A stretch of 64,000 nucleotides of DNA, taken from NCBI RefSeq assembly GCF_006547065.1, contig NZ_CP041243.1, forward strand, positions 945,001-1,009,000. Direction: 5' to 3'. The position numbers and the translations under genes are program-made. The notes beneath the pieces are model-generated. The model was not told where the DNA came from and searched no databases. It was given only the letters and a program-made list of their open reading frames with translations. Of this stretch, positions 43,425 to 64,000 are shown piece by piece (within the stretch, counting starts at the first letter, position 1; each line of letters starts with the position of its first letter). The DNA is from Brevundimonas sp. M20. GTDB taxonomy: Bacteria; Pseudomonadota; Alphaproteobacteria; Caulobacterales; Caulobacteraceae.

Positions 43425-43463
43425 TTGACAGCTCATCTTTCTGGAAGAATGTTAGCGCTAACA
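43425..43463 (+). promoter_or_regulatory. xylX promoter with LacI-type operator
   Basis: A -35 box TTGACA (43425-43430) and a -10 box AATGTT (43448-43453) are separated by 17 bp. The perfect 14-bp palindrome TGTTAGCGCTAACA (43450-43463) overlaps the -10 and covers the expected start site, so bound repressor would block RNA polymerase. The start codon of xylX is about 40 bp downstream. The LacI-type gene ends 26 bp upstream. Confidence 0.85.
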
Positions 43464-45405: not shown

Positions 45406-45454
45406 GCCGACGGTGATCTGAACGGGCCGATAGAGCCCTCTGGGAGGATTGAGA

Positions 45455-46882: not shown

Positions 46883-46989
46883 CCATTCTCCCCGAACGGA
46901 GTACGGCGGGCGGCGCTTCGGATGCCTATCTGATGCGTCGCCCGTCGGGCTTCGACCTGTACGACTGACTTCTCCAAGGAATACCTCCC

Positions 46990-48432
46990 ATGACCGACAC
47001 CCTCGAGCTTTCGCACTGGATCAACGGCGAGCGCGTCGGGGGTGATCGCCCGGCCGAGAGCACCAACCCCTCTGACACGCGCGAGGTCGTGGCCCGCACG
47101 CCGGACGGCTCGGCGTCGGACGTCGATGATGCGGTGGCGGCGGCCAAGGCCGCCTTCCCATCGTGGTCGGAAGCCTCGCCGGAAGCGCGCTCGGATGTGC
47201 TGGACAAGGCCTCCAACCTGCTGATGGAGCGCAAGGAAGAGGTCGGCCGTCTGCTGTCGCGCGAGGAAGGCAAGACCCTGCCGGAAGGCATTGGCGAGAC
47301 CGCTCGCGCCGCCCGCATCCTGAAATATTTCGCCGGTGAGGCCCTGCGCCTGCATGGCCAGAACCTGGCCTCGACCCGTCCGGGCGTGGAAGTCCAGACC
47401 TATCGCCAGCCGGTCGGCGTCTATGGCCTGATCACCCCTTGGAACTTCCCCATCGCCATCCCGGCCTGGAAAGCCGCGCCCGCGCTGGCGTTCGGCAATA
47501 CGGTGGTGCTGAAGCCCGCCGGTCCGACCCCCGCGACGGCCGAGGCGCTGGTCGCCATCCTGCATGAGGCGGGCCTGCCCAAGGGCGTGCTGAACATGGT
47601 CATCGGTCGCGGCGGCGTCGGTCAGGCGATTGTCGATCACAAGGACGTCGCGGGTATCTCCTTCACGGGCTCACAGGGCGTCGGCGCCGGTGTGGCGGCG
47701 GGCGCGGTCAAGCGTCAGGCCCGCGTGCAGCTGGAGATGGGCGGCAAGAACCCGCTGATCGTGCTGGACGACGCCGATCTGGAGCGGGCGGTGAATATCG
47801 CGCTGGATGGCTCCTTCTTCGCCACGGGGCAGCGCTGCACCGCCTCCAGCCGCCTGATCATTCAGGACGGCATCCACGACAAATTCGTCGCCCTGCTGGC
47901 CGAGAAGGTCGCCGCGCTGCGCGTCGGCGATGCTCTGGACCCGAACACCCAGATGGGCCCGGCGGTCAGCGAGGCCCAGATGGAGACCTCCTACACCTAC
48001 ATCGACATCGCGCGCGGCGAGGGCGCCCGCATCGCCACCGGCGGCGATCGTCTGAAGCTGGACAAGCCCGGCTGGTACGTCCAGCCGACCCTGATCGCCG
48101 ACACCGCCGCCGACATGCGGATCAACAACGAGGAAGTCTTCGGTCCCGTCGCCTCGACCATCCGCGTGAAGAGCTACGAAGAGGCTCTGGAGATCGCCAA
48201 CGGCGTCGAGTTCGGCCTGTCGGCCGGTATCGTCACCAGCTCGCTGAAGCACGCGCGCGACTTCCAGCGCCGCGCCAAGGCGGGGATGACCATGGTCAAC
48301 CTGCCGACCGCGGGCGTCGACTATCACGTGCCGTTCGGCGGGACGAAGTCGTCCAGCTATGGCGCGCGCGAGCAGGGCTTCGCCGCCGCGGAGTTCTTCA
48401 CCACCATCAAGACCAGCTACAGCGCGGGCTGA
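46990..48432 (+). CDS. xylA: 2-oxoglutarate semialdehyde dehydrogenase, ALDH family
   Basis: A 480-residue aldehyde dehydrogenase. It oxidises 2-oxoglutarate semialdehyde to 2-oxoglutarate, the last Weimberg step. E249 (LEMGGKN) and the nucleophile C283 (GQRCTAS) are spaced as in the family. The NAD site includes [13 protein letters not shown]. The position in the operon and similarity to the Caulobacter xylA product support the name. xylA here means this ALDH, not xylose isomerase. The upstream gap (46883-46989) holds no gene I can support. Confidence 0.93.
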
Positions 48433-48436
48433 CCCC

Positions 48437-49300
48437 ATGCAGATCGGAACCGAGCCCGTTCTGCTGTGGGACCTTCAGGCCGAGCTGGGCGAGGGGCCGG
48501 TCTGGGATGACCGCCGCCGCTGCGTCTGGTTCGTCGACATCAAGGGCCGTCGTCTGCACCGCTACGGCGTGGACGACGGCGCCCGGGACAGCTGGGATGC
48601 GCCGGAACAGATCGGCTTCGCGCTCCCTGCCGAGGACGGGTCGCTGATCTGCGGCGTGCGGGGCGGTCTGTACCGGTTCGATCCGGAAACGGGCGACTTC
48701 GCCCTGATCATCCGGGTGGAAGAGGATCGTCCGCAGAACCGCATCAACGACGGCTTTGTGGCTCCGGACGGGACACTGTGGTTCGGCACGATGGATGACA
48801 GCGAGGAGACCGTCTCGGGCGCTCTCTATCGCTGGCGGGACGGTGAGCTGACCCGCCACGACGACGACCATCGCGTCACCAACGGCCCGGCGCTGAGCCC
48901 CGATGGCCGGACCCTCTATCACCACGACACGACCGAGAAATGCATCTACGCCTTCGACCATGACGACGGCGAACTGAGCAACAAGCGCCTCTTCGCCGTG
49001 ACCGAGGACGGCTATGCCGACGGGCCGAGCATGGACGAGGCGGGCGTGCTGCACGTCGGCCTGTTCAACGGCTGGGGCGTGGCGCGGTTCGCGCCCGACG
49101 GCACGCGGATCGGTAAGATCGAACTGCCGGTCCAGACGGTGACCAAGGCGGCCTTCGGCGGCGATGATCTGAAGAGCCTGTTCTGCACTACGGCCTGGCT
49201 GGGCAATGCCGACAAGCGCGCCGAGCAGCCGACGTTGGGCGGGCTGTATGCGCTGCGGGTCGAGACTCCGGGGCTTCCGCAGGCGCGGGTAAAACTGTGA
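48437..49300 (+). CDS. xylC: D-xylonolactonase, SMP-30/gluconolactonase family
   Basis: A 287-residue six-bladed propeller lactonase that hydrolyses D-xylonolactone to D-xylonate. Metal-ligand sites are visible: E in AELGEGPVWD (E19), N in NRINDGF (about 103) and Asp in the DGPSMDEAG block (about 195). The domain GTLWFGTMDDSE is typical. It starts 4 bp after the xylA stop. I chose the ATG at 48437 since the protein family begins there. It overlaps the epimerase gene by 4 nt. Confidence 0.92.
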   Translation: MQIGTEPVLLWDLQAELGEGPVWDDRRRCVWFVDIKGRRLHRYGVDDGARDSWDAPEQIGFALPAEDGSLICGVRGGLYRFDPETGDFALIIRVEEDRPQNRINDGFVAPDGTLWFGTMDDSEETVSGALYRWRDGELTRHDDDHRVTNGPALSPDGRTLYHHDTTEKCIYAFDHDDGELSNKRLFAVTEDGYADGPSMDEAGVLHVGLFNGWGVARFAPDGTRIGKIELPVQTVTKAAFGGDDLKSLFCTTAWLGNADKRAEQPTLGGLYALRVETPGLPQARVKL

Positions 49301-50145
49301 TTGAACTGCGTCACGGCAACTGGCGACTGGTCCTGCGGCCCGAGCTCGGGGGCTCCATCGGGGCGCTGAGCCGGGATGGCGTCGATATCCTGCGCAGGAT
49401 GCCGGACGGCTCGACCGATGTGCTGGAGGCGGGCTGCTTTCCGCTGACGCCCTACGCCAACCGGATCGCCGGCGGGGTGTTTGCCTTCGAGGGACGGGAG
49501 ATCGCCCTGCCGGTCCAGCCCGCGTTCGCGCCGCATGCCCTGCATGGGGACGGCTGGCTGAGCGCATGGGCGGTCGAGACGCGGGACGAGACTTCCGCGA
49601 CACTGATCCATCGCCATGCGCCGGACGCCTGGCCTTGGGCCTATGAGGCGCGGCAGACGTTCGGGCTGACGGACGCGGGGCTATCGGTTGGCCTGTCGAT
49701 GACCAATCTGTCGGATAGCCGGATGCCCGCCGGACTCGGCCTGCACCCCTATTTTCCGGTGACGGACAAGACCCGCCTGCGCTTCGATGCGGCGCGGGTC
49801 TGGGGCGGGGGCGTGGACGAGGTGCCGACGACCTTGCTGCCGGTGTCGGATGTCCATGACTGGTCGGGAGGAGCGCGCGTGATCGAGGCTCCGTTCGTGG
49901 ACCACGCCTATGTCGGCGACGGCGCGGCGGTGTTGGCGGAGCCCGGTCGGACGACGACCGTCACGGCCTCCGCCAATGCGGGCTGGCGTCACATCTTCGT
50001 TCCCGGCGGCGACTTCTGCTGCATCGAGCCGGTGACGCACCGCCCGGACGCCGCCCACGCGCCCGACGGCGAGGCCAGCGGCTGGACCGTTCTGGCGCCG
50101 GGCGAAACCCTGACGATGCGGATGGACGTGACGGTTCAGGGCTGA
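49297..50145 (+). CDS. Aldose 1-epimerase (mutarotase)-like protein
   Basis: A 282-residue beta-sandwich protein. The aldose epimerase residues appear in PLTPYANRIAGG (Arg), ALHGDGW (H83), GLHPYFP (second His) and CIEPVTH (catalytic Glu). It interconverts alpha and beta anomers, and could feed xylB the anomer it uses. It starts with GTG overlapping xylC (GTGA). It is the last gene of the plus-strand xyl operon and is not part of the five-gene Caulobacter core as I recall it. Confidence 0.9.
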   Translation: MIELRHGNWRLVLRPELGGSIGALSRDGVDILRRMPDGSTDVLEAGCFPLTPYANRIAGGVFAFEGREIALPVQPAFAPHALHGDGWLSAWAVETRDETSATLIHRHAPDAWPWAYEARQTFGLTDAGLSVGLSMTNLSDSRMPAGLGLHPYFPVTDKTRLRFDAARVWGGGVDEVPTTLLPVSDVHDWSGGARVIEAPFVDHAYVGDGAAVLAEPGRTTTVTASANAGWRHIFVPGGDFCCIEPVTHRPDAAHAPDGEASGWTVLAPGETLTMRMDVTVQG

Positions 50146-50194: not shown

Positions 50195-51979
50195 TCAGTG
50201 GTTGTCCCGGGCTTCGCCGAACTTGTCGATGATGCGGTGGTACTTCACCGCAGGCTCCAGCACCGCGCCGGTTTCCAGTTCGCCGACCATCCCGCGCTGG
50301 ATCTCCTGCCAAGGGGTCTGGGACGCCGGATATTTGTAGCCCCCGGCGGCCTCGAAGGCGGCGCGGCGTTCGGCCAGTTCGGCGTCCGAAATCAGGATGT
50401 CGGCGCGCCCGGTGTTCAGGTCGATGCGCAGGCGGTCGCCGGTGCGCACCAGCGCGATATTGCCCCCCGTCGCCGCTTCCGGCGAGGCGTTCAGGATCGA
50501 GGGCGAGCCCGAGGTGCCGGACTGGCGCCCGTCACCGATGCAGGCCAGCGCCGAGACGCCCTTTTTGATCAGATAGGCGGGCGGTCGCATGTTCACGACC
50601 TCGGCCGCGCCCGGGTAGCCAACCGGACCCGCGCCGCGCATGACCAGCAGGGTCTGTTCGGTGATGCCCAGCGCCGGATCGTCGATGCGGTGGTGGTAGT
50701 CCTCGGGCCCGTCGAACACGACGACCGGGCCTTCGAAGGCGTTGAGGTCGTCCGGGTTGGACAGGTAGCGGTCGCGGAACTCGGGGCTGATGACGCTGAG
50801 CTTCATCACGGCGGTCGAGAACAGGCTGCCCGAGAGGACCATGAAGCCCGCGCGGGTCTTCATCGGGTTGTCGAACGGGCGGATGACGTCGGGCAGGTCC
50901 GAGACCTTGCCACGGCAGTTCTCGCCCATGGTCTTGCCGTTGGCGGTCATGGCGCCTTCGGCGATCAGGCCCTGTTCGATCAGCGCGCCGACCACGGCGG
51001 GCACGCCGCCTGCGTGGAAATAGTCCTCGCCCAGATACTCGCCGGCGGGCTGCAGGTTGACCAGCAGGGGGACGTCCAGCCCCTCGTCCTGCCAGGCCTT
51101 CAGAGGCACATCCACGCCCGCGTGGCGGGCCAGGGCGGTCAGGTGGATCGGGGCGTTGGTCGAGCCGCCGATGGCCGAGTTGACCACGATGGCGTTGTGG
51201 AAGGCCTCGCGCGTCAGGATGTCCGACGGCTTCAGGTCCTCGCGGACCATGTCCACGATCCGCTTGCCGGTCTCATAGGCGACCTGCGCCCGTTCGCGAT
51301 AGGGCGCAGGGATGGCGGCCGAGCCGGGCAGGGACATGCCCAGGGCCTCGGCCAGCGAGTTCATCGTCGTGGCCGTGCCCATGGTGTTGCAGTAGCCGAC
51401 CGACGGGGCCGACGAGGCCACCAGTTCGATGAAGCCGTCATAATCGATCTCGCCGGCGGCCATCATCTGGCGGGCCTTCCAGATGATCGTGCCGGAGCCG
51501 GTGCGCTCGCCCTTGTGCCAGCCGTTCAGCATCGGACCGACCGACAGGGCGATGGCCGGAATGTCGACGGTGGCCGCGGCCATCAGGCAGGCCGGGGTGG
51601 TCTTGTCGCAGCCGATGGTCAGGACCACGCCGTCCAGTGGATAGCCGTAAAGGCTCTCGACGAGACCGAGATAAGCCAGGTTGCGGTCCAGCCCCGCGGT
51701 CGGGCGCTTGCCGGTTTCCTGGATCGGGTGGACCGGGAACTCCATGGCGATGCCCCCGGCCTCGCGGATGCCTTCGCGCAGGCGCTCGGCCAGCACCAGG
51801 TGGTGGCGGTTGCAGGGGCTCAGGTCCGAGCCGGTCTGGGCGATGCCGATGATCGGCTTGTCCGACTGCAGCTCCTGACGGGTCAAGCCGTAGTTCAGGT
51901 AGCGCTCCAGATAGAGCGCGGTCATGTCGGGGTTGTCCGGGTTGTTGAACCAGGCGCGCGAGCGAAGCGGCTTTGTCAT
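50195..51979 (-). CDS. xylD: D-xylonate dehydratase, IlvD/Edd family
   Basis: A 594-residue Fe-S dehydratase close to Caulobacter XylD. It removes water from D-xylonate to give 2-keto-3-deoxyxylonate. Cluster cysteines are C56 (SPCNRHH), C124 (GCDKTTPA) and C197 (GYCNTMG). [16 protein letters not shown] and [16 protein letters not shown] near the C-terminus are family signatures. It is on the opposite strand from the rest of the xyl genes, 5 bp after the second SDR gene. This suggests control by the IclR regulator rather than, or in addition to, the LacI-type one. L-arabonate or galactonate as extra substrates are possible. Confidence 0.92.
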
Positions 51980-51984
51980 CTCAG

Positions 51985-52731
51985 TCAGTTCCAGCCGCCG
52001 TCGACGACGTAGTGTTGGTTGGTGATCGCCGAGGCATCATCCGAGGACAGGAAGACCACCACGCGGGCGATGTCGTCCGGGACCAGCGGGCGTTTGATGC
52101 ACTGGTTGGCGTAGATTTCCTTCTCGGTCTCCGGGGTGACCCAGAGCTCGAGCTGGCGCTCCGTCATGATCCAGCCGGGAGCCACGGCGTTCACGCGCAC
52201 GCCATGCTCGCCGAAGTCGCGGGCCAGCGAGCGGGTCAGGCCCAGCACGGCGGACTTTGAGGCGGTGTAGGCGGGCATGCCGCCCTGGCCGATGATCCAC
52301 GAGCAGGAACCCAGGTTGACGATTGAGCCCTTCTTCGAGCCGATCATGTCGGGCAGCACGGCCTGGGAGGCGAAGAACTGGTGCTTCAGGTTCACGGCCA
52401 CGCGGCCATCCCAGTACTCTTCCGTCACCTCGAGGGTGGCGTGGCGCTCGTCGTGGGCTGCGTTGTTGATCAGGATGCCGATGGGGCCGAAACGGGCGCG
52501 GACCTGTTCGATGGCGGCCCTGAGCGCCGGGATATCTGTCACGTCGCAGCGGACGAACTCGACCGAGGGAGACAGGGCCTTGGCCAACGACTCGCCGCGA
52601 GGGTTATCAAGGTCCAGAACGCCGACGCGCGCGCCCTGCGCCACGAAGGCGCGGGTGATCGCCTCGCCGATGCCGCCGGCGCCGCCGGTCACGATGACCG
52701 TCGCGCCTTCGAGGTCCGGATAGATCGCCAT
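51985..52731 (-). CDS. Second sugar-type SDR, XylB paralog
   Basis: A 248-residue SDR with TGGAGGIG at residues 15-22, VLDLDN (Asp for NAD), NNAAHDERH, a catalytic AYTASK and the C-terminal [10 protein letters not shown]. The [19 protein letters not shown] block aligns with NNAANDDRHALAEVTPAYW of XylB, so the two are clear paralogs. I infer a sugar 1-dehydrogenase for another aldose such as L-arabinose, D-galactose or D-glucose. The gene is 5 bp from xylD and follows the IclR gene. GGAGCGAG precedes the chosen ATG. Confidence 0.85.
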
Positions 52732-52838
52732 CTCGCTCCCGCCGCCCAAAGGGCCACATCCAAGGTTTTATTCTTGGCTTGATTTTTGTGCGTAAAAAAT
52801 GACGCCGAGGGAGGCTTTCGTCAACGCCGGATCGGGCG

Positions 52839-53609
52839 TCAGCTCGCGGAATGTCCCATTTCACTCGAGATCGCCGCCGCCGCGCGTTGCAGTTGCTCGA
52901 CCGAGTCGGTGATCGAGCCGACGGCGGGGGTCCGCTCGATGTAGGGCGTGATCAGGGTGGCCAGAATGCCTTCGGCGCCGATGATCGGGGCGACCAGATC
53001 GGTGACCCCCTTCACGAAGTCGCTCGGGCGCTCGGCGTGTCCCTCGGCTGCGGCGGCTTCGGCGGCGGCGATATAGTCGGCCACGCGTTTCTTGCCATAC
53101 CGGGCGGACAGGGTCTCACGCATATGCGCCTGCATCCGCTCGCCGGCGAAGCCATAGAACAGCAGGCCTGAGGTGGCTTCCAGAATGCTGCGGCGATAGC
53201 CGATACGGACCGAGTAGCCGAGGTCGCCGGGCGCCTCGATGCGGGCGACGACGACGATCTGGTCATCCGAGCGGACCACGAGGTGGCAGGACTGCACGGT
53301 CGAATCGGCCAGCTCGCGCATGTGGGGCAGGGCGGCCTCGACCAGATCCTTGGCCGGGCCGTGGGCGATGCCGAGGGCAAACAGCCGGTTGGTCAGTCGA
53401 TAACCGGACGTCGTCGGTTCGATATAGCCGCGGAACTCCAGCACCTGGATCATCCGGAACAGCTCGCTGACCGAACGGCCCAGCATGGCCGACATCTGCG
53501 ACGGCGTCAGGGGCGCGCCGTGCTGGGACAGCAGCTCGAGAACGTCCAGCCCCTTTTCCAACGCCGGGGCGCGGTATTTGCGGCTTTCGTCGTCAACGCT
53601 GTCCAGCAT
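52839..53609 (-). CDS. IclR-family transcriptional regulator
   Basis: A 256-residue regulator. The N-terminal winged helix (about 15-75, LEKGLDVLELLSQHG ... LTPSQMSAML) and C-terminal effector domain (about 80-250) match IclR proteins. GAGGGAG just before the ATG at 53609 decides the start. It lies divergent from the SSS symporter gene and upstream of the SDR-xylD pair, so it likely controls both. IclR proteins act as activators or repressors; the effector here is unknown but a sugar acid is plausible. Confidence 0.88.
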   Translation of the reverse strand: MLDSVDDESRKYRAPALEKGLDVLELLSQHGAPLTPSQMSAMLGRSVSELFRMIQVLEFRGYIEPTTSGYRLTNRLFALGIAHGPAKDLVEAALPHMRELADSTVQSCHLVVRSDDQIVVVARIEAPGDLGYSVRIGYRRSILEATSGLLFYGFAGERMQAHMRETLSARYGKKRVADYIAAAEAAAAEGHAERPSDFVKGVTDLVAPIIGAEGILATLITPYIERTPAVGSITDSVEQLQRAAAAISSEMGHSAS

Positions 53610-53727
53610 GGAATCTCCCTCAGTCGCCAATGCCATATTGTTATCACCTGTAAAAGCGATTGCCGATTGTGAAAATTGAACCTAGCGTCGGACCTTCGAG
53701 CCGAAGACGGCCGGGGGAGACGATACC
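53610..53727. promoter_or_regulatory. Divergent promoter region IclR / SSS symporter
   Basis: This 118-bp gap is A+T-rich compared with its surroundings and contains TTGTTATCACCTG and the tandem GATTGCCGATTG, followed by GTGAAAATTGAAC. Both genes must start from it. No copy of the TGTTAGCGCTAACA operator is present, which separates this unit from the LacI-type regulon. A second A+T-rich gap (52732-52838), with CCAAG/CTTGG dyad and TTTTTTACGC, lies before the SDR-xylD pair. Confidence 0.55.
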
Positions 53728-55302
53728 ATGACGCTGGCGCCGATCGACCTGATCCTGCTCGCAATCTATGCGGTGTTCATTTTCGCTCTCGCCCAGTGGG
53801 TGTCCCGCGACAAGGGGGGCGCGCAGAAGAACTCGACCGACTACTTCCTGGCGTCCAAGGCTCTGCCCTGGTGGGCCATCGGCGCCTCGCTGATCGCCGC
53901 CAACATCTCGGCCGAGCAGATCATCGGCATGTCGGGTTCGGGCTACCTGATCGGTCTGGCTATCGCCTCCTATGAGTGGATGGCGGCCCTGACCCTGCTG
54001 ATTGTCGGCAAGTGGTTCCTGCCGATCTTCCTCGCCAACAACATCTACACCATGCCGCAGTTCCTCGAGCAGCGGTACGGCACGACGATCCGCAACGTGA
54101 TGGCCGGCTTCTGGCTGGTTCTCTACGTCTTCGTGAACGTGACCTCGATCCTGTGGCTGGGCTCGATCGCCGTGACCACGGTGACCGGCATGGACCAGAT
54201 GTGGGCCATCGTCGCCATCGGCGTCTTCGCCCTGGCCTATCAACTGTGGGGCGGTCTGAAGGCCGTGGCCCTGACGGACATCGTGCAGGTGACCCTGTTG
54301 GTCGCCGGCGGCCTGATCATCGGCTTCATCGCACTGGGCCAGATCGGCGGCGACGCGGGCGTACTGGGCGGGTTCAGCCGTCTGACGACCGAGTTCCCCG
54401 AGAAGTTCGACATGATCCTCTCGCCTGACAGCCCCTACTTCAAGGACCTGCCGGGCCTCTCCGTCATCTTGGGCGGGATGTGGATCATGAATCTGAGCTA
54501 CTGGGGCTTCAACCAATACATCATCCAGCGGGCGCTGGCGGCCAAGTCGGTGCAGGAGGCCCAGAAGGGCATCGCCTTCGCCGCCTATCTGAAGCTGCTG
54601 ATGCCGGTGATCGTGGTGCTCCCGGGCATGGCGGCGCTGATCCTGGCGCCCGGCCTGCCCAAGCCGGATCAGGCCTATCCGACGATGATGAACCTGCTGC
54701 CCATCGGGCTGAAGGGCATCGTCTTCGCCGCCCTGATGGCCGCGGTGGTCGCCTCGCTGGCGTCCAAGATCAACTCCATCGCCACCATCTTCACGCTGGA
54801 CCTCTACGCCAAGGCCAACAAGGGCGCGTCCGAGAAGCAACTGGTCACGGTCGGCCGGATCGCGGCGGTGGTGGCCATGGTCGTCGGCGTGATCGCCGCC
54901 CGTCCGCTGCTTGGCGGCTTCGAGCAGGGTTTCCAGTACATTCAGGAGTTCACCGGCTTCTTCACCCCGGGCATCGTGGTGATCTTCATGCTGGGCATGT
55001 TCTGGCCGAGGGCGTCGCAGGCCGGCGCCCTGACCGGGGCCATCCTGTCGGTGGTGCTGTCGGGCGTCTTCTGGTGGCTGCAATCGGCAGATATCTTCAC
55101 CATGCCGTTCATGAACCGCGTGGGCGTGGTCTTCATCGCCTCGCTGCTGGCGGCGATCCTGGTGTCGTTCATCGCGCCGCAGAGGGAGACCACCCTGCCG
55201 ATCAGCTTCGCGGGTGTCAGCTACAAGACGACCATGGGCTTCAACATCGCGGCGCTCGGCGTCATCGCGTTCCTGATCGCGGTCTATTCGATCTGGTGGT
55301 GA
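53728..55302 (+). CDS. Sodium/solute symporter (SSS/SGLT family), sugar type
   Basis: A 524-residue symporter with about 14 membrane helices. It resembles the Vibrio vSGLT galactose/glucose carrier: AANISAEQIIGMSGSGY near helix 1, YQLWGGLKAVALTDIVQ, NLSYWGFNQYIIQRALAAKS, and SLASKINSIATIFTLDLY. Uptake of a hexose or pentose driven by sodium is expected. The ATG follows GGGGGAGA with good spacing. It is divergent from the IclR gene and converges on the halogenase pair with 6 bp between. Confidence 0.9.
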   Translation: MTLAPIDLILLAIYAVFIFALAQWVSRDKGGAQKNSTDYFLASKALPWWAIGASLIAANISAEQIIGMSGSGYLIGLAIASYEWMAALTLLIVGKWFLPIFLANNIYTMPQFLEQRYGTTIRNVMAGFWLVLYVFVNVTSILWLGSIAVTTVTGMDQMWAIVAIGVFALAYQLWGGLKAVALTDIVQVTLLVAGGLIIGFIALGQIGGDAGVLGGFSRLTTEFPEKFDMILSPDSPYFKDLPGLSVILGGMWIMNLSYWGFNQYIIQRALAAKSVQEAQKGIAFAAYLKLLMPVIVVLPGMAALILAPGLPKPDQAYPTMMNLLPIGLKGIVFAALMAAVVASLASKINSIATIFTLDLYAKANKGASEKQLVTVGRIAAVVAMVVGVIAARPLLGGFEQGFQYIQEFTGFFTPGIVVIFMLGMFWPRASQAGALTGAILSVVLSGVFWWLQSADIFTMPFMNRVGVVFIASLLAAILVSFIAPQRETTLPISFAGVSYKTTMGFNIAALGVIAFLIAVYSIWW

Positions 55303-55308
55303 CGAACC

Positions 55309-56820
55309 TCAGCGGGGCGCGGCCTGCACCGCGCCCCGAATGAAGTCATCATGGGTCGGCATGCGCTCGACACCGTCACGGATCAACGCCCGCATTCGGT
55401 GCAGGTGATCGCGGGTGGCCTCCAGCGGCATGACCTCGGTGATCGGGTCGTGACGCTCCGGCCTCACGCCCTGGCCCAGAAGCACCGCGATCCAGCTGGT
55501 GTCCTGGAACAGCTCATCCTCGAAACGGAAGACCCGCCCGCGGCTCCGGAACAGCTCCATCTTCCGGCGCAGACTGTCCGGTATCTCCATGGCGCCGACC
55601 TGACGCCACAGGGGCGTGTCGGTGCGCTCGGTGGCCTTGTAGTGAAGCACGACGAAATCACGGACCCGCTCGTACTCCAGCTGTGACAGGTGATTGTAGT
55701 TGTCGATGTCGGGCTGCGAAAACGCCGTGTCAGGGAAACTGAGCAACAGACGTGTGATGCCGGTCTGGATCAGGTGAATGCTGGTCGACTCCAGCGGCTC
55801 CAGGAAACCGGAGGACAGGCCGATCGCCAGACAGTTCCGGTTCCAGGCCTTCTTGCGTCGCCCGGTGTGGAAGCGCAGTAGGTTGGGATCGGCAAGACAT
55901 TCGCCGTCGATGGACCCGCGAAGCCGGGCCAGCGCCTCGTCATCGCTGATGTGCTCGCTGCAATAGACATAGCCGTTGCCGGTGCGGTGCTGGAGGGGGA
56001 TGCGCCAGCGCCAGCCGGCCTCCAGCGCTGTGGAGCGGGTGTAGGGCGTCGGCGGTTCGACCCGCGCGCAAGGCAGGGCGACGGCCCGGTCGCAGGGGAG
56101 CCAGTGAGTCCAGTCCTCGTAACCCGTCTTCAGCGCGCCTTCGATCAGAAGGCCGCGGAAGCCCGAACAGTCGATGAAGAAATCGGCGTCCAGAACACGC
56201 CCGTCCTCCAGCGCCACCGCGCCGATGTCGCCGTTGGGGGCCATCCGGACATCAGCGATACGGCCCTCATGCCTGACAACGCCGGCCCGCTCGGCGCGCC
56301 CCCGCAGAAAGCGCGCATACAGGGAGGCGTCAAAGTGGAAGGCGTAGGCCATCGCGGCGTTGATGGATCGCGGATCGCCCTGCGGGCGGGCGAAGCGGCC
56401 CAGACGGGCGGCCATCGCCGGCGCCGAGTAGGCGTCCAGATCGTCGTCCAGCCCGGCCGCTTGGAGACGGAGCCAGTACTGATGGAAGGACGCGGCCCCG
56501 ACGCGGGAGCCATACTGGCCGAACGGATGGAAATAGGCGTGACCCTTTCGGAACCAGTCCTGGAACTGGATGCCAAGCTTGTAGGTCGCTTGGGTCTCGC
56601 GCAGGAATTCGTTCTCGTCGATTCCGAGCAAGGCGTTGAAAAGCAGGATCGGCGGAATGGTCGCCTCTCCGACGCCCACCGTGCCGATGGCTTCGGATTC
56701 GACCAGCTCGACCTGTACGGCTCCGCGCAGCACGTGAGACAGTGCGGCGGCGGTCATCCAGCCGGCGGTTCCCCCGCCGACAATCAGGACTTTCCGGATC
56801 GGCTCAGGAGGTGTGCTCAT
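55309..56820 (-). CDS. Flavin-dependent tryptophan-halogenase family protein, copy 1
   Basis: A 503-residue enzyme. The FAD site GGGTAGWM is at about 15-22. The halogenase motif WRWRIP is at about 270-275. The reactive Lys is K81 (YKLGIQF), and the Glu of FLEPLESTSI is near 340, so all known catalytic positions are kept. It needs reduced flavin and a halide. It lies in a carbohydrate locus with no NRPS/PKS or indole pathway nearby. The start overlaps the second copy's stop by 4 nt. It converges on the SSS gene. The substrate may be free indole-like molecules, a peptide or the plant-derived ligand; none is shown by sequence. Confidence 0.9.
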   Translation of the reverse strand: MSTPPEPIRKVLIVGGGTAGWMTAAALSHVLRGAVQVELVESEAIGTVGVGEATIPPILLFNALLGIDENEFLRETQATYKLGIQFQDWFRKGHAYFHPFGQYGSRVGAASFHQYWLRLQAAGLDDDLDAYSAPAMAARLGRFARPQGDPRSINAAMAYAFHFDASLYARFLRGRAERAGVVRHEGRIADVRMAPNGDIGAVALEDGRVLDADFFIDCSGFRGLLIEGALKTGYEDWTHWLPCDRAVALPCARVEPPTPYTRSTALEAGWRWRIPLQHRTGNGYVYCSEHISDDEALARLRGSIDGECLADPNLLRFHTGRRKKAWNRNCLAIGLSSGFLEPLESTSIHLIQTGITRLLLSFPDTAFSQPDIDNYNHLSQLEYERVRDFVVLHYKATERTDTPLWRQVGAMEIPDSLRRKMELFRSRGRVFRFEDELFQDTSWIAVLLGQGVRPERHDPITEVMPLEATRDHLHRMRALIRDGVERMPTHDDFIRGAVQAAPR

Positions 56821-58343
56821 CTCGCCTCGGTCTTCATCTGGACGCCACGGAGAAATTCGAGCCGGTCAGGCAGGGTGGCGGTCGCCCGGGCGATAAGCTC
56901 GGAGATTTTCAAGGCCTGACGCTCCACGACGTCGAGGTCGAGCGCGGAGACCTGCGGCGCAACCTTGCGCGGCCAGACGTCCAGCCCGGTCAGGACCGAG
57001 GTCCAGCTGGCCTCGCGGAAGGAATCGTAGTGACTGGGGTCAATCTCGCCACGGGCCCGGAACAGCTCCAGCCGTTCCGCCAGACTGTCCGGAGGCGCGG
57101 TCTCGCGGCAGTGGGCCCAGAGCGCGCCTTCGGTTCGCCCCGCCAGATGGTAGTGCGCGATGATGAAGTCCCGCACCCCGATCCACTCCAGCTCGGTACG
57201 GCGGTTGTATTCGGCGATCAGCGCCGGATCGAACTCCCGATCAGGGAAGAGCTCCAGCAACCGCCCGATGCCGGTCTGGATCAGGTTGATGCTGGTCGAC
57301 TCCAGCGGCTCGAGGAAGCCCGACGCCAGCCCCAGAGCGACCACATTGCCCTTCCACGCCGCGCGGCGGCGACCGGTTACGAAACGCAGCCGGTTCGGTT
57401 CAGCCTCGGCCGGGGCCTCAAGCCCGTTCACAAGTTCATCGAGCGCGTCGTCGTCATTGATGAAGGCGCTCGAATAGACGTAGCCGTTGCCCACCCGATG
57501 TTGCAGCGGAATGCGCCAGCACCAGCCCGCCGAGGCGGCGCGGGCGGTCGTGTAGAGGTCTGGCGGACGACTGGCGGAGGTCGGCAGGGCGATGGCCCGA
57601 TCACACGGAAGCCAACGGCTCCAGTCCTCATAGCCTGCCTGCAACGCACCCTCGATCAGCAGGCCGCGGAAGCCAGAGCAGTCGATGAACAGATCGGCTT
57701 CTAGGCGCCGCCCGTCCTCCAGCCGGATCGCCTGCACCCGTCCGTCGGCGGCCTCGACATCGCTGATCCGTCCCTCCACCCGCGCGACACCAGCGGTCTG
57801 GGCCAAGGCGGACAGACGCTTGGCGAACAGTCCCGCGTCGAAATGATAGGCGTAGGAATAGGCGGACAGGATGGAGCGGGGATCGGAAACTGGCGGGCCG
57901 AATCGTCCGCTTTCGGCCATCACTGCGGGGACGGACCAGGGATCAAGACTGGACAGGCGGCCCTCCGCCTTCAGCCTGAACAGGTGCTGCCGGTAGGGCT
58001 GGCCCTGAACGTCCGGTCCATGGTCGCCGAAGCCGTGGAAATAGCGGGAGCCGCTCCCCATCCAATCGTGGAAGGCGATACCCAGTTTCGGCGTCGCCCC
58101 CGTGCTGGCCATGAAGTCGGCTTCGTCCAGACCAATGGAGCGGTTGAACTGCCGTATCGGGGGGATGGTGGCCTCGCCGACGCCGACGGTGCCGATCGCA
58201 TCGGACTCGACCAGACGGATGACCGGCCTGCCCGGTTCAGGCAGGTCGCCGAAAGCGCGGGACAGGGCCGCCGCCGCCATCCAGCCTGCGGTGCCCCCAC
58301 CGACGATGAGAACGCTCGTGATGCGGGGATCGGTATCGCCCAT
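56817..58343 (-). CDS. Flavin-dependent tryptophan-halogenase family protein, copy 2
   Basis: A 508-residue paralog of copy 1, with FAD motif GGGTAGWM (about 15-22), K86 (PKLGIAF), WCWRIP near 272 and GFLEPLESTSINLIQTGI. CDRAIALP and NGYVYSS are shared by both copies. It is the first gene of the pair, 75 bp from a LacI-type operator, and divergent from the TonB receptor gene, so xylose-linked control is likely. Similar halogenase-TonB receptor pairs are known in Xanthomonas and Caulobacter relatives. Their function there is unresolved. Confidence 0.9.
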   Translation of the reverse strand: MGDTDPRITSVLIVGGGTAGWMAAAALSRAFGDLPEPGRPVIRLVESDAIGTVGVGEATIPPIRQFNRSIGLDEADFMASTGATPKLGIAFHDWMGSGSRYFHGFGDHGPDVQGQPYRQHLFRLKAEGRLSSLDPWSVPAVMAESGRFGPPVSDPRSILSAYSYAYHFDAGLFAKRLSALAQTAGVARVEGRISDVEAADGRVQAIRLEDGRRLEADLFIDCSGFRGLLIEGALQAGYEDWSRWLPCDRAIALPTSASRPPDLYTTARAASAGWCWRIPLQHRVGNGYVYSSAFINDDDALDELVNGLEAPAEAEPNRLRFVTGRRRAAWKGNVVALGLASGFLEPLESTSINLIQTGIGRLLELFPDREFDPALIAEYNRRTELEWIGVRDFIIAHYHLAGRTEGALWAHCRETAPPDSLAERLELFRARGEIDPSHYDSFREASWTSVLTGLDVWPRKVAPQVSALDLDVVERQALKISELIARATATLPDRLEFLRGVQMKTEAR

Positions 58344-58418: not shown

Positions 58419-58432
58419 TGGTAGCGCTAACA
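58419..58432. promoter_or_regulatory. Second LacI-type operator, in the halogenase/TonB receptor divergent promoter
   Basis: TGGTAGCGCTAACA differs by one base from the perfect palindrome TGTTAGCGCTAACA in the xylX promoter, and 13 of 14 bases are the same. It lies 75 bp before the halogenase-2 start and 135 bp before the TonB receptor start. On the minus strand TTGAAA (-35-like) lies 9 bp upstream and TACCAT (-10-like) overlaps it, so repression of the halogenase promoter is plausible. The rest of 58344-58567 holds no gene I can support. Confidence 0.8.
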
Positions 58433-58567: not shown

Positions 58568-61513
58568 TTGTCCCATATCAAGCGTAACGGCCGCGCGGCC
58601 CTGCTGTGTGGCGCGTCACTGTTCAGTCTCGTGGCGCTGACGCCCATGAGCGCCCTGGCGCAAACCGCGCCCGCGGCCCAGGATCCGGATGAGGACGCGG
58701 CCCAGCTGGACGAGGTCGTGGTTACCGGCATTCGCGCGCAGCTGCAGAGCGCCCAGTCCATCAAGCAGGATTCCGAAGTGATCGTGGATTCGATCACCGC
58801 GGTGGACATCGGCGCGCTGCCGGACCGTTCCGTGTCCGAGGCGCTGCAACGCGTGTCCGGCGTGACCCTTCAGCGCACCAACGCCGCCCGTGACCCCGCC
58901 CGTCTGGCGGCCGAAGGCGGCGGCGTGTTCGTTCGCGGCCTGTCGTGGGTTCGGTCCGAAACCAACGGGCGCGACATCTTTTCGGCGTCCAACGGCCGTG
59001 GGCTGAGCTTCGAGGATGTCTCGGCCGACCTGCTCGCCGGCGTGGACGTCTACAAGAACGTGGCCGCCAACATGATTGAGGGCGGCATCGCCGGTACGAT
59101 CAACCTGCGCACGCGGGTTCCGTTCGATAACCGCGGCCATCTGCTGGCGGTGAACACCGACTACAACTACGGCGACCTGTCGGAGCGCGGCTTCTGGTCG
59201 GGCAGCATGATCGGGTCGAACCGCTGGGACACCGGCATCGGCGAGATCGGCCTGCTGGCCAACATCAGTGTTTCGAACGTGGGCAACCGCACCGACTCGA
59301 TCTCGGTGGACCGCTATGATCCGGTTGTGCTGGACGCCGGCAACGCTTCGGACGGACGGGTCGCGGGCGACACGGTCTATGTGCCCAAGTATCTGGGCTG
59401 GCGGACCATCGACTGGGAGCAGGAGCGCACCGCGGTCGCTCTGGCGGCGCAGTGGCGTCCGAATGCCGACCTGCTCTTCACCTTCCAGGCTCTCGGATCG
59501 CAGGCGGATGCCTACAATATCGAGCGCGCGCTCGGCACCGAGAGCATTCTCTCACCCAACTCCACCTACCGCTACAATGAAGACGACGTCTTCATTGGCG
59601 GTACTGTTCCCCAAGCCAACTACAACACCGATACGCGTGTCGGCGACGACACCAAGCGGACCGGCGAGGTCTCGGTCGGCTTCCAGTACACGCCGAACTC
59701 GCCATGGTCGGTCACCGGCGACCTGCAGTATGTGAAGTCGACGGCCGAAATCTACTCGATGACGGCCTTCACCCAGCTGGAGAACCGCCCCGATCTGACG
59801 ATCACCATCGACGGCGACCTGCCGACGGTCACCTCCACGGGCGGCACGCCGACCGATCAGTCGACCTACTGGTGGGCGGCGGCGATGGATCACATCGAGG
59901 ACAATGAGGCCGACGAACTCGCCGGTCGTCTGGACGCCACCTACACCTTCGAGAATCCGGATGGATTCTGGAAGTCGGTCGCGATGGGTGTGCGCGGCAC
60001 CGAGAAGAACTACATCAACCGCCAGACCGGCTATAACTGGGGGCTTCTGTCCAACCAGTACTGGGGCAACGGTGGGGGAGCGGTCGTCTATCTGGACGAC
60101 ACCGGCTATCCGGGCGGCACGGTCGATCCGCGCCTGCCGGCTTCGTCCGAGCTGTTCTCGTTCACCAACTTCTTCCGTGGCGACGCGCCGGTTCCGGGCG
60201 TGGCCTGGTTCCCCACCGCGGCGCTGGTCAGCGGCGGCACGGCGAATGCCTATGATATCCTGCGCAACACCCAGAGCTCCGGCTGGGGCTGGACGCCGCT
60301 TTCGGACGACTATGAGAGCTATCGCCTGGGCGGCGGCAACGGCGGCATCACCGAGCTGACCGAGGAAACACAGGCCGGCTATATCTACGCCCGGTTCGGC
60401 GGAGACGAGTCGATGTTCGGTCGGCGCTTCGACGGTAACGTCGGCGTTCGTATCGTGCGGACCAATACGCAAACGAACACCATCACCACCCTGCCGGTGA
60501 TCTCCGGGGCGTGCCCGCCCGTCGGTAACCCGACGGCCGATTGTACGGCCTTCAACCGCGCCGTCGCCTTCTCGACCGGCGGCTCGCTGGACGGCGCGAG
60601 CGTCGATCACAGCTATACGGACGTCCTTCCCAGCCTGAACCTGCGCGTCTTCCTGCGTGATGATCTGCAGGCGCGCTTCGCCGTGTCGCGCGCCATGGTG
60701 CGGCCTGAGATGTACCAGCTGCAGCCGTTCACCAACCTGTCGATCAATTTCGAGGCCGACGGCTACACCCTGGATGACGTCGCGCCCTTCACCGGCGTCG
60801 GCGGCAACCCGGCGCTCGATCCGATCAAGGCGACCAACTACGACCTCAGCCTTGAATGGTATTTCGCTCCGACCGGCAGTGTGACCCTGGCGGTGTTCCA
60901 CAAGGACATCACCGACTACATCTTCACCGGGACCGAGACCCAGTCGTACACCAACGGCGGCGTCACCTACGACTTCCTGATGACGCGCTACGTCAACGGG
61001 GATGAAGGCACTGTCGACGGGTTCGAGCTGGCCTATCAGCAGTTCTTCGATTTCCTGCCGGGCTGGATGGGCGGCTTCGGGGTGCAGGGCAACTTCACCT
61101 TCATCGACAGCAATGGTGGTCGCAACACCAGCCAGAACGTGCTGGATCCCTTGCAGAACACGGCCTCCGCTGACGCCCTGCCGCTCGAAGGCATGTCGCG
61201 CACCAGCTACAACGCGGCCCTGTTGTACGAGCGGTACGGAATCTCCGCCCGACTGGCCTACAACTGGCGTGAAGAATATCTGCTGACCACCTCGGCCGCG
61301 AACGTGAACGCGCCGGTCTGGGCCAGCGACTATGGCCAGCTGGACGGCTCGATCTTCTACAACATCAATGATGATCTGAAGATCGGTCTGCAGTCGACCA
61401 ATATCCTCAACGAACGGACCGTGCTGAAGGTGGGCAACGAGACCCGCAAGCCGCCCTACAACTGGGTGGATACGGATCGTCGCGTCGCGATCGTTCTGCG
61501 CGCCGCCTTCTAG
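58568..61513 (+). CDS. TonB-dependent receptor of the Xanthomonas/Caulobacter type, likely xyloglucan oligosaccharide transporter
   Basis: A 981-residue outer-membrane receptor. The signal peptide ends at ALAQ (about 32). A TonB-box-like DEVVVTG is at about 48-54. The plug includes SITAVDIGALPDRSVSEALQRVSGV, GRGLSFEDVSADLLAGVDVYKN and IEGGIAGTINLRT. The barrel ends with the aromatic VLRAAF. Start is TTG, with AGGAAGGA 8 bp upstream and no better start. GH35 and GH31 genes follow on the same strand, and the operator at 58.4 kb precedes it, so an oligosaccharide from xyloglucan is the likely ligand. Transport needs TonB-ExbBD, not in the window. Confidence 0.93.
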   Translation: MSHIKRNGRAALLCGASLFSLVALTPMSALAQTAPAAQDPDEDAAQLDEVVVTGIRAQLQSAQSIKQDSEVIVDSITAVDIGALPDRSVSEALQRVSGVTLQRTNAARDPARLAAEGGGVFVRGLSWVRSETNGRDIFSASNGRGLSFEDVSADLLAGVDVYKNVAANMIEGGIAGTINLRTRVPFDNRGHLLAVNTDYNYGDLSERGFWSGSMIGSNRWDTGIGEIGLLANISVSNVGNRTDSISVDRYDPVVLDAGNASDGRVAGDTVYVPKYLGWRTIDWEQERTAVALAAQWRPNADLLFTFQALGSQADAYNIERALGTESILSPNSTYRYNEDDVFIGGTVPQANYNTDTRVGDDTKRTGEVSVGFQYTPNSPWSVTGDLQYVKSTAEIYSMTAFTQLENRPDLTITIDGDLPTVTSTGGTPTDQSTYWWAAAMDHIEDNEADELAGRLDATYTFENPDGFWKSVAMGVRGTEKNYINRQTGYNWGLLSNQYWGNGGGAVVYLDDTGYPGGTVDPRLPASSELFSFTNFFRGDAPVPGVAWFPTAALVSGGTANAYDILRNTQSSGWGWTPLSDDYESYRLGGGNGGITELTEETQAGYIYARFGGDESMFGRRFDGNVGVRIVRTNTQTNTITTLPVISGACPPVGNPTADCTAFNRAVAFSTGGSLDGASVDHSYTDVLPSLNLRVFLRDDLQARFAVSRAMVRPEMYQLQPFTNLSINFEADGYTLDDVAPFTGVGGNPALDPIKATNYDLSLEWYFAPTGSVTLAVFHKDITDYIFTGTETQSYTNGGVTYDFLMTRYVNGDEGTVDGFELAYQQFFDFLPGWMGGFGVQGNFTFIDSNGGRNTSQNVLDPLQNTASADALPLEGMSRTSYNAALLYERYGISARLAYNWREEYLLTTSAANVNAPVWASDYGQLDGSIFYNINDDLKIGLQSTNILNERTVLKVGNETRKPPYNWVDTDRRVAIVLRAAF

Positions 61514-61581: not shown

Positions 61582-63249
61582 GTGAGTTTTGTGAACGCCC
61601 GGCCGCGCGCGCTGGCCTTTCTCGCGGGATGCCTCGCACTGACGATCGGAGCCGCCGCCCAGGGGCAGACGTCGGCGCGGGGCGAGGCCGCGATCCCGCA
61701 TGTGCTGAATCAGGACGGCCGCCATGCCCTGATCGTGGACGGCGCGCCGTTCACCATCCTGGGCGCGCAGGTCAACAACTCCTCCAACTATCCGGCTCCA
61801 CTGGCCGAAGCCTGGCCCGCGGTGAATTTCATCGGAGCCAACACCGTTCAGGTGCCGATCGGCTGGGAGCAGATCGAACCGGTCGAGGGACAGTTTGACT
61901 TCAGCTTCGTCGATCACGTCGTGGCCGAGGCGCGCCGCAACAATGTGCGTCTGGTCCTGCTGTGGTTCGCCACCTGGAAGAACACCGCGCCGAAATACGC
62001 GCCGGCCTGGGTCAAGCTGAACCCCGAGCGCTTCCCGCTGCTGACCCGTCAGGACGGCACGGCGTCCTATGCGATGTCGCCGCACTCACGCACGACGCTT
62101 GAGGCCGACAAACGCGCTTTCGTCGCCCTGATGACCCACCTGCGTCGCATCGACGGCGACCGGCATACGGTGATCATGGTCCAGCCTGAGAACGAGACCG
62201 GCACCTATGGTTCGGTCCGCGACTACGGTCCCGAAGCGCAGGCGCTGTTCGACGGCCCTGTGCCGCAGGCCCTGCTGACGCGTCTTGGCAAGGCGCCCGG
62301 AACCTGGCGTCAGGTTTTCGGTGATGACGCCGACGAGTTCTTTCACGCCTGGGCTATCGGCTCCTACGTCGGCGAGATCGCCGCGGCCGGGAAGGCGGTC
62401 TATCCGCTGCCGATGTATGTCAACGCGGCACTGCGCAATCCCGTCGAGCATCAGGCCCCCGACAGCTATGCCTCCGGCGGGCCGACCTGGAATGTGATCG
62501 AGGTCTGGCAGGCCGCCGCGCCCGCCATCGACTTCCTGTCGCCCGATATCTACGACCGCCCCTCGCGGACCTACGAGGCTCACCTCGACCGCTATGGACG
62601 GGCCGACAATGCGCTGTTCGTGGCCGAGACCGGCAATGACGTGCAGTACGCCCGCTTCCTTTTTTCGGTGCTCGGACGTGGCGGCCTCGGCTACTCGCCG
62701 TTCGGCATCGACTACACCGGCTATGCCAACTATCCGCTCGGCGCTCAGGAAGTCACCGAGGAGACACTGACGCCGTTGCGCGACGTCTATCGGGTCATCG
62801 CCCCCTGGCAGCGGGTCTGGGCCCGCCTGTCGTGGGAAGGCAAGGTGCGCGGGGTGTCCGAGCCGGACGACCGCAGCTCGCAGACGGTCGATCTGGGTGC
62901 GTGGACCGCCACTGTCGGCTATCGCCGCTGGCAGTTCGGTCAGCCCGAATGGACCTGGCTCGGACCGCAGGACGTGGTGCCGGGCACCGAGACGCCCGGT
63001 GGCGGCGCCGTCTTCGCCGAAATCTCGCCCGGTGAGTTCATCGTCACCGGCTATCGCGTCCGCGTCGATTTCAACGCCAAGCCCTCGACCGACGGGAAGC
63101 GCCGAATGGTGCTGCGCATCGAGGAAGGCCATTTCGACGAGCGCCAGAACTGGGTGTTCGAACGCATCTGGAACGGCGACCAGACGGACTACGGCCTGAA
63201 CTTCACCGACCGTCCGCGCCTGCTGCGCGTGGTCACCGCCACCTACTGA
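61582..63249 (+). CDS. GH35 beta-galactosidase, DUF5597 type, exported
   Basis: A 555-residue glycoside hydrolase. The signal peptide is followed by mature sequence from about residue 30. The GH35 acid/base is E205 after N204 (PENETGTYG) and the nucleophile is E349 (FVAETGND). Typical blocks are [22 protein letters not shown] and [11 protein letters not shown]. The C-terminal 150 residues match the DUF5597 domain seen in Cellvibrio Bgl35A, which removes galactose from xyloglucan side chains. It starts with a GTG after GGAGAG. It lies between the TonB receptor and the GH31 gene. Confidence 0.9.
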
Positions 63250-63273
63250 CCGACGACGTTACGAGTGTTTGCC

Positions 63274-64000
63274 ATGACCCACGCCCGTCTCCTGAAATCC
63301 GCCGCGATGGCGCTTGTTCTGGCCGCAGCGGCGCCGGTCTGGGCCGTCGCCTCGCCGATGGTGCAGTCGGTCTCGACCGAGCGCGTCCAGCGCCTGCCCG
63401 ACGGCGTCATCGTCGTTCCGTCGAGCGGTGAGGCGAGAGCCGTGCGTCTTCAGGTCTATGGACCGCGCACCATCCGTGTCACCGCCTCGCCCGATGACAG
63501 CTTCGAGGCTCCGGCCAGCCTGATGGTCACGGCCACCCCGCAGACCACCGGCTTCACCGTCGAGCAGCGCGCGGACGTGGTGCTGGTGAAGGCCGCCGAA
63601 GTCACCGCCGAGGTGACGCTGACCACCGGCGCCGTGAGGTTCCTCGATCCTTCGGGGCAGGTGATCCTCGCCGAGCGCGTGAACGGCCGGGAAATCGCCC
63701 CGGTCACCATTGAGGATCAGACGGGTTCGCACCGCTACAACACCGTCCGTCAGGTGTTCGAACCGGGCGCCGATGACGCCTTCTACGGCCTGGGACAGCA
63801 CCAGCAAGGCGTCGCCAACTATCGCGGCCATGACGTTGAACTGGCCCAGCACAACATCGACGTGGGCATTCCCTTCGTCGCCTCGACCGGCGGCTACGGC
63901 CTGCTGTGGGACAACAACTCGATCACCCGTTTCGGTGATCCCCGCGAGTACGGGATGCTGGATCAACGCCTGATCCTCCGCGACGCCACGGGCCGCTTCG
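63274..64000 (+). CDS. GH31 family glycoside hydrolase, N-terminal part (gene continues past window)
   Basis: An open frame of 242 codons from ATG 63274 that is still open at the window end. A signal peptide covers about residues 1-25. The following beta-sandwich region with FYGLGQHQQGVANYRG and PFVASTGGYGLLWDN is the N-terminal domain of GH31, close to alpha-xylosidase such as Cellvibrio Xyl31A. The catalytic domain lies outside the window, so xylosidase versus glucosidase is not decided. It starts 24 bp after GH35, on the same transcript. Confidence 0.85.
   Translation, partial: MTHARLLKSAAMALVLAAAAPVWAVASPMVQSVSTERVQRLPDGVIVVPSSGEARAVRLQVYGPRTIRVTASPDDSFEAPASLMVTATPQTTGFTVEQRADVVLVKAAEVTAEVTLTTGAVRFLDPSGQVILAERVNGREIAPVTIEDQTGSHRYNTVRQVFEPGADDAFYGLGQHQQGVANYRGHDVELAQHNIDVGIPFVASTGGYGLLWDNNSITRFGDPREYGMLDQRLILRDATGRF

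Follow-up and report, generated by a model that had tools for sequence, protein, structure and literature searches.

Flavin halogenases of the BrvH type beside a TonB-dependent receptor in Brevundimonas sp. M20: a possible xylose-controlled accessory of sugar uptake

The flavin halogenases PrnA, RebH and Thal serve biosynthetic pathways. BrvH (structure 6frl) of Brevundimonas sp. BAL3 brominates free indole at C3 and does not act on tryptophan. Its authors question whether indole is what the enzyme naturally modifies; the measured activity with indole is low (2.5 mU/mg), and they note that the active site could accommodate larger substrates (PMC5945002). Of four related metagenomic enzymes, three accepted indole and not tryptophan, and two acted on phenol (PMC5945002, PMC8269204). 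The subject of this analysis is a pair of genes of this family, H1 and H2, in a 64,000-nucleotide stretch of Brevundimonas sp. M20 (contig NZ_CP041243.1, positions 945001-1009000 of a single-contig genome of 3.3 Mb), referred to below as the window. The pair belongs to the BrvH-type halogenases, of which it is a new representative, and lies beside the gene for a TonB-dependent receptor. Our reading, to which we assign a probability of about 0.4, is that H1 and H2 are active halogenases that form a xylose-induced accessory of sugar uptake and probably act on a macromolecule.

The halogenase pair and its closest relatives

H2, the first gene of the pair (56817..58343, minus strand), encodes 508 amino acids and is followed by H1 (55309..56820, minus strand), which encodes 503. 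The stop codon of H2 and the start codon of H1 share the tetranucleotide ATGA (56817..56820, minus strand). An earlier examination of the DNA, the sequence-only reading, had proposed two halogenase genes with a 4-nt overlap and intact catalytic elements; its coordinates are exact and the elements are present in both proteins. H1 and H2 cover the PF04820 profile nearly end to end (665 and 578 bits, cut-off 21), and each retains the GxGxxG motif for binding flavin adenine dinucleotide (FAD) as GGGTAGWM at residue 15, the reactive lysine (Lys81 in H1, Lys86 in H2), the WxWxIP motif (WRWRIP in H1, WCWRIP in H2) and the glutamate of FLEPLEST, at 339 and 343, respectively. The two proteins are 51% identical, and comparison of each with four relatives from the genus indicates purifying selection (nonsynonymous divergence, dN, 0.14-0.30; synonymous divergence, dS, 0.86-1.29). 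They are the only full-length PF04820 proteins encoded in the genome, where the other three matches are partial and weak.

Both proteins are closer to BrvH and to Xcc4156 (6y1w) than to the tryptophan halogenases. For H1, the best-matching solved structures are 9luq, BrvH (507 bits) and Xcc4156, all at 494-510 bits, and the next chains, which are tryptophan halogenases, reach at most 296 bits. H2 shows the same split, with 405-462 bits for the same three structures (462 for BrvH) and no more than 280 for the next chains. Xcc4156, one of the Xanthomonas campestris halogenases, comes from a different genus, whereas BrvH resembles the window pair in full-length match, catalytic motifs and genus. 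PrnA, RebH and Thal share the fold family, the FAD motif, the lysine and WxWxIP with the pair, but PrnA has YYEN residues that bind tryptophan (PMC8269204). These are not found in H1, where the two tyrosines align to Phe-Gln and the Glu/Asn stretch to a seven-residue gap, as far as the letters can be assigned; H2 was judged indirectly, through its gap-free alignment with BrvH in this region.

The indole-brominating Brevundimonas enzyme mentioned in the sequence-only reading is BrvH itself. That reading also regarded the pair as an undescribed system, which is too strong for the pair as such because brvH too has an adjoining second halogenase gene (gene 13), much as H1 and H2 are paired (PMC5945002). 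The differences from BrvH lie in what surrounds the genes: the word 'TonB' does not occur in the main text of PMC5945002, and neither a xyl-box nor sugar genes are mentioned in the accessible parts of that paper. Activity has been demonstrated for BrvH and is predicted for the window pair. What goes beyond BrvH is a cross-genus linkage to sugar receptors, a predicted xylose switch, the optional nature of the halogenase and a conserved inactive second member of larger halogenase arrays.

Linkage to sugar receptors across genera

Divergently from the halogenases, the window encodes a TonB-dependent receptor (58568..61513, plus strand; TIGR01782, TonB-Xanth-Caul, 642 bits). Recurrence of this arrangement was followed in two sets of loci. 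The genus set holds the regions around all full-length matches in 61 genus genomes (52 loci, 53 with the window). A named survey holds the best 80 of at least 592 confirmed stretches and is not a random sample because only these 80 were kept; six of them without a halogenase call (L159, L163, L171, L215, L219, L221) were excluded from the linkage counts, leaving 74. Genes were called with a codon-usage script trained on high-GC window genes, which placed several start codons too far downstream.

PF04820 is matched in 33 of the 61 genus genomes (32 over the cut-off) and, class-wide, in 26 of 289 genomes at E 1e-100. The 53 genus loci contain 64 halogenase runs, of which 36 adjoin a receptor of one sequence cluster and 49 have a receptor of that cluster within three genes. 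The chance expectation for a receptor within three genes is about 4%, a rough estimate from some 21 receptor-like genes, mostly weak matches, among about 3,200. A hidden Markov model (HMM) of the genus receptors places a receptor within three genes of the halogenase in 59 of the 74 named loci and directly adjacent in 51. Six of the other 15 (L162, L179, L188, L193, L198, L201) have a member of a second receptor cluster within three genes, one representative of which was confirmed by Pfam, so that 65 of the 74 have a TonB receptor; five of the remaining nine are short or end near the halogenase gene. The named genera include Caulobacter, Sphingomonas, Asticcacaulis, Pseudoxanthomonas, Pelomonas, Marinimicrobium and Gilvimarinus and span the alpha-, beta- and gammaproteobacteria. 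The halogenase-receptor association, which the sequence-only reading had noted for Xanthomonas and Caulobacterales, recurs in many genera.

The glycoside hydrolase (GH) families in these loci vary (GH3, 5, 10, 13, 30, 31, 35, 43 and 97 among cluster representatives). The condition set in advance for abandoning the idea, that halogenase-receptor pairs never occur with carbohydrate genes, is contradicted by these loci, and the adjacent families differ from locus to locus. In one further case (L065:8807-14363), a halogenase lies beside a receptor of another type, an Oar-like TonB receptor (PF25183, CarboxypepD_reg), together with a DUF6445 gene. Halogenase-like genes have reportedly also been described in Xanthomonas N-acetylglucosamine loci. 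A literature search, judged mostly from search results, returned no report of a gene link between halogenases and TonB receptors; PMC11337851 assigns halogenase transcripts to phages and Colwellia and speculates on virus-host receptor interactions, with no gene link in the parts accessible.

The relation between halogenase and receptor was followed further in a maltodextrin-type locus comprising a LacI gene, two GH13 genes, GH97, the receptor and an MFS transporter. An HMM of halogenase-linked receptors gives 72 hits of at least 770 bits in the 61 genomes, the next score being 633, and the hits with no halogenase nearby were examined as additional loci. The maltodextrin-type locus is found with a linked halogenase, with an unlinked one elsewhere in the genome, or without a matching one. 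The maltodextrin-type halogenase occurs in 14 of the 61 genomes, in six as an unlinked copy, and all 14 have the matching receptor: 14 of 36 receptor genomes against 0 of 25 without it (Fisher p = 3e-4, from hand-assembled counts and with kinship ignored). Because this type is found only among receptor genomes, the halogenase appears to need the receptor locus, while the receptor locus does not appear to need the halogenase. Eighteen receptors that lack a matching halogenase come together as a single derived group in the receptor tree; seven more without one are scattered through the tree, and most of these are from contig ends or incomplete genomes. Six of the 18 genomes have no halogenase at all and 12 have halogenases of other types. 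The halogenase appears to be an optional supplement to sugar uptake and not a part of natural-product synthesis. An earlier proposal that every member of one receptor clade comes with a halogenase was weakened by added loci, the early non-adjacent receptors having come mostly from top-scoring loci.

Some unlinked copies have recurrent surroundings of their own. In L079, L084 and L085 the maltodextrin-type halogenase (between 8785 and 10491) adjoins a tRNA-Pro(TGG) gene, possibly an insertion site; in L037, L047 and L081 an unlinked halogenase is flanked by genes that resemble, by eye, those for an acyl-CoA dehydrogenase and an enoyl-CoA hydratase, with one small gene intervening in L047. In addition, a weak PF04820 match with an in-frame TGA lies at G000:C1:2969432-2970244, a few kb from another TIGR01782 receptor, and resembles a different flavoprotein.

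The linkage might also be passive, with halogenase genes transferred along with receptor cassettes but contributing nothing to uptake. Of the 61 genus genomes, 60 have TIGR01782 receptors (E 1e-60) and 33 have halogenase-family matches, and the maltodextrin-type locus is retained in genomes that lack a matching halogenase, as passive linkage would allow. We nevertheless consider such linkage quite improbable in view of receptor adjacency in most of the named loci across three proteobacterial classes, the purifying selection on the pair, the xyl-box shared with the receptor, and the restriction of matching halogenases, even unlinked ones, to receptor genomes (kinship ignored).

Many of these loci carry halogenase arrays, and some second members have lost their catalytic residues. 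The 53 genus loci and the named loci together encode 219 halogenase-type proteins (L157, from Brevundimonas intermedia, and L069 are identical over 19,001 bases and are one locus present in both sets), of which 16 lack the catalytic Lys and/or Glu, for example L166:7051-8472, L199:8517-9989 and L203:8476-9981. Each of the 16 is the second gene of its array (16 of 45 second genes against none of the 174 others). A single clade holds 14 of them, from Brevundimonas, Caulobacter, Asticcacaulis, Sphingomonas, Parvularcula and Oceanicaulis, and the other two are L045_4280 (Lys to Arg) and L177_8318 (Glu to Asp, a marginal case). Long branches may help to group the clade; array position is independent evidence. 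Within it, dN/dS is 0.26-0.40 in five of six pairs and 0.66 in one distant pair, values that are rough because dS is above 1 in all but one of the pairs. Several of the inactive genes (L158, L166, L203, L220) start within the stop codon of the preceding gene. This pattern suggests that inactive members are retained as partners in complexes with active enzymes.

It also bears on whether halogenation takes place in vivo at all. H1 and H2 could instead be flavin monooxygenases, protein-modifying oxygenases like QhpG or LodB, or flavin sensors; a related array subfamily is retained under purifying selection without its catalytic residues, and QhpG models match both proteins and a LodB model matches H1. 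These matches are weak and far under the curated cut-offs, however, H1 and H2 keep every halogenase residue examined, and their close relative BrvH halogenates in vitro (PMC5945002), so we think a non-halogenating role unlikely.

Companion genes recur in these loci as well, and we count one family, Cupin_8, in favour of our reading. Cupin_8 (JmjC-like) genes occur in 15 of the 80 named loci and in 12 of the 61 genus genomes, all 12 being among the 33 with a halogenase match (G004 with one below the cut-off; Fisher p = 2e-4, kinship ignored). The genus genomes contain 15 Cupin_8 genes. Eight of them have a halogenase or a receptor of this type no more than two genes away, one (G013) neighbours a TonB receptor of another type, one (G052) neighbours a gene of similar appearance, and the other five have no such neighbour. 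DUF6445 was matched in 7 of the 80 named loci. SapC was matched in none of the 80 (phmmer, one query) and in one genus locus, within a compact halogenase-Cupin_8-SapC-receptor cassette (L048:8808-15334).

The xyloglucan-type locus and a predicted xylose switch

The 224-base spacer between H2 and the receptor gene contains a perfect xyl-box, TGGTAGCGCTAACA (58419..58432, no strand assigned), identical letter for letter to the printed Xanthomonas xyl-box (PMC7748154, PMC10380989). One of these two papers describes the release of Caulobacter XylR from the xyl-box in the presence of xylose. A second site, TGTTAGCGCTAACA (43450..43463, no strand assigned), lies upstream of a xylose-type operon; at up to two mismatches these are the only two sites in the window, against 0.09 expected in 64 kb. 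There are four perfect xyl-boxes in the genome, and the other three adjoin GH43, GH39 and the xylose-type operon. With one mismatch allowed, six places are found compared with four for the pattern read backwards, so isolated one-mismatch sites mean little. The xyl-box in the spacer overlaps the -10 element of a weak predicted sigma-70-type promoter for H2 (9 of 12 consensus bases; shuffle mean 0.1). The pair and the receptor have the perfect upstream xyl-box expected of XylR regulon members and are predicted, from this arrangement, to share a xylose-controlled switch. At up to one mismatch, a xyl-box occurs in the halogenase/receptor spacer of 8 of the 53 genus loci (the window, L041, L045, L049, whose receptor is apparently cut by a contig end, L052, L060, L061 and L073) and of 4 of the 80 named loci (Oceanicaulis L148, Caulobacter zeae L154, and Sphingomonas L166 and L199).

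The genes around the pair are those of carbohydrate utilization. Downstream of the receptor gene are a GH35-type beta-galactosidase gene (61582..63249, plus strand; DUF5597, and NF051902 at 481 bits, just under its cut-off of 500) and a GH31 gene of alpha-xylosidase type (63265..64000, plus strand), which continues past the window end and encodes 978 amino acids at full length in L144. The cluster continues beyond the window with genes for a SASA-type acetylesterase, a GH29 fucosidase and a BNR-repeat protein and with the galactose genes, DGOK and a KDPG-type aldolase. On the other side of the pair are an SSS sodium:solute symporter of sugar type (53728..55302, plus strand), an IclR-type regulator (52839..53636, minus strand), an SDR dehydrogenase whose best NCBIfam match, below cut-off, is D-xylose 1-dehydrogenase (51985..52749, minus strand) and an IlvD/EDD sugar-acid dehydratase (50195..51979, minus strand). 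The xylose-type operon (43559..50145, plus strand) comprises a 363-codon gene and genes for an SDR protein, a sugar porter, an aldehyde dehydrogenase, a lactonase and an aldose epimerase, and is preceded by a gene for a LacI-family regulator (42379..43398, plus strand) that is our candidate XylR. Family matches thus bear out the TonB receptor, GH35, GH31 and xylose-type catabolic partners named in the sequence-only reading, and the locus has the receptor, glycoside hydrolases, inner-membrane sugar transporter, regulator and catabolic genes of a carbohydrate or polysaccharide utilization locus.

These gene families, together with a resemblance to the Xanthomonas xyloglucan utilization locus (XyGUL), which also has GH31, GH35, an esterase and a TonB receptor (PMC8245568), suggest a xyloglucan-type cluster; in the same comparison the BNR protein may be GH74-like. 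XyGUL differs in having two receptors and GH95, and the word 'halogenase' is not in the main text of PMC8245568.

Candidate targets and the meaning of the linkage

In the mechanism we propose, the pair would be an optional accessory of the xyloglucan uptake locus. Xylose would cause the LacI-type XylR to leave the xyl-box, derepressing both the receptor gene and the divergent, coupled H2-H1 operon. The cytosolic halogenases would then place a halogen on an indole or phenol group that is exposed, using O2, a halide and FADH2 supplied by an unlinked reductase; as for BrvH, bromide would probably be the preferred halide. The likeliest target would be a macromolecular component of uptake, such as an exported or envelope protein, and not a secondary metabolite.

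The receptor itself, which the sequence-only reading had listed among possible targets, was examined through its aromatic residues. Receptors linked to halogenases have more tryptophan on average than others (14.9 against 10.5), whereas within the maltodextrin-type group it is the receptors without a matching halogenase that have more (11.3 against 9.2). In that group 15 halogenase-associated receptors were compared with 17 of the 18 without a match (L308 left out), and one conserved aromatic residue alone has changed: Tyr138 in the plug is replaced by Phe, a single evolutionary event. At group-typical residues, Trp accounts for 4 of 64 in the receptors without a matching halogenase and 0 of 48 in the sister group, and five other maltodextrin-type locus proteins show no lost Trp or Tyr. 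The comparison is weakened because 11 of the 17 genomes hold other halogenases, and could miss a target because lineage-specific targets, or other halogenases acting in trans, would escape it. These weak tests lend receptor modification no support and do not count clearly against it.

Several observations weigh against the uptake accessory with a macromolecular target. No Trp or Tyr is both common to 41 halogenase-linked receptors and missing in 28 others, and no Trp conserved in the 15 halogenase-associated maltodextrin-type receptors is lost in the 17 without a match, which instead carry extra Trp at four positions (188, 275, 346 and 769 in L062 numbering), all in a single lineage. The N-termini of H1 and H2 have no signal-peptide-like segment, while the receptor is in the outer membrane. 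By eye, the maltodextrin-type operator is not seen upstream of the unlinked halogenase genes. The window pair has no inactive member; Cupin_8, DUF6445 and SapC are not among the scanned genes of its locus, and Cupin_8 and DUF6445 were not found in its genome at E 1e-20. Finally, BrvH-type enzymes act in vitro on free indole and phenols (PMC5945002, PMC8269204).

This last activity is an argument for a small aromatic compound (indole, a phenol or something scavenged) that would be halogenated during growth on plant polysaccharide as a deterrent, as a signal or for detoxification. Sugar control would time a deterrent to feeding, and the receptor-residue results take away a reason to favour a protein over a small molecule. 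On the other hand, no biosynthetic gene is present among the Pfam-scanned neighbours, from 40.8 kb in the window to about 12 kb past its end, which agrees with the earlier statement that no indole, non-ribosomal peptide synthetase (NRPS) or polyketide synthase (PKS) gene is nearby; TnaA and the NRPS condensation domain have no match genome-wide, the search for PKS genes having covered the neighbourhood. The low activity of BrvH on indole (PMC5945002) also speaks against such a substrate. A plant defence compound in particular, as the sequence-only reading had suggested, is a poor fit, since the same enzymes occur in starch/maltodextrin-type, GH3, GH10, GH43, GH30 and GH97 loci for unrelated polysaccharides. 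We regard a small aromatic substrate as nearly as likely as a macromolecular target, which we place slightly ahead. Taken as a whole, the sequence-only reading is partly supported: the intact halogenases in a xyloglucan-type locus and their recurrent association with receptors stand.

A more elaborate version, which we offer as speculation and think rather unlikely, is that the arrays form a protein-modifying complex, in many species of active halogenases with a conserved inactive one as second subunit, that halogenates part of the uptake machinery under sugar control, perhaps so that phages or bacteriocins no longer recognize the receptor; the window pair would be a two-subunit version. Such a mask would fit the optional, receptor-linked and sugar-independent pattern of occurrence.

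A halogenated protein in sugar uptake would, if it exists, be new bacterial biology to our knowledge. BrvH-type halogenases are studied as biocatalysts, and the accessible parts of PMC5945002 and PMC8269204 give no native substrate. The tie to a sugar receptor and a named inducer, xylose, would turn the search for that substrate into a defined experiment. In these genera, the linkage also makes many annotations as 'tryptophan halogenase' doubtful signs of natural-product synthesis.

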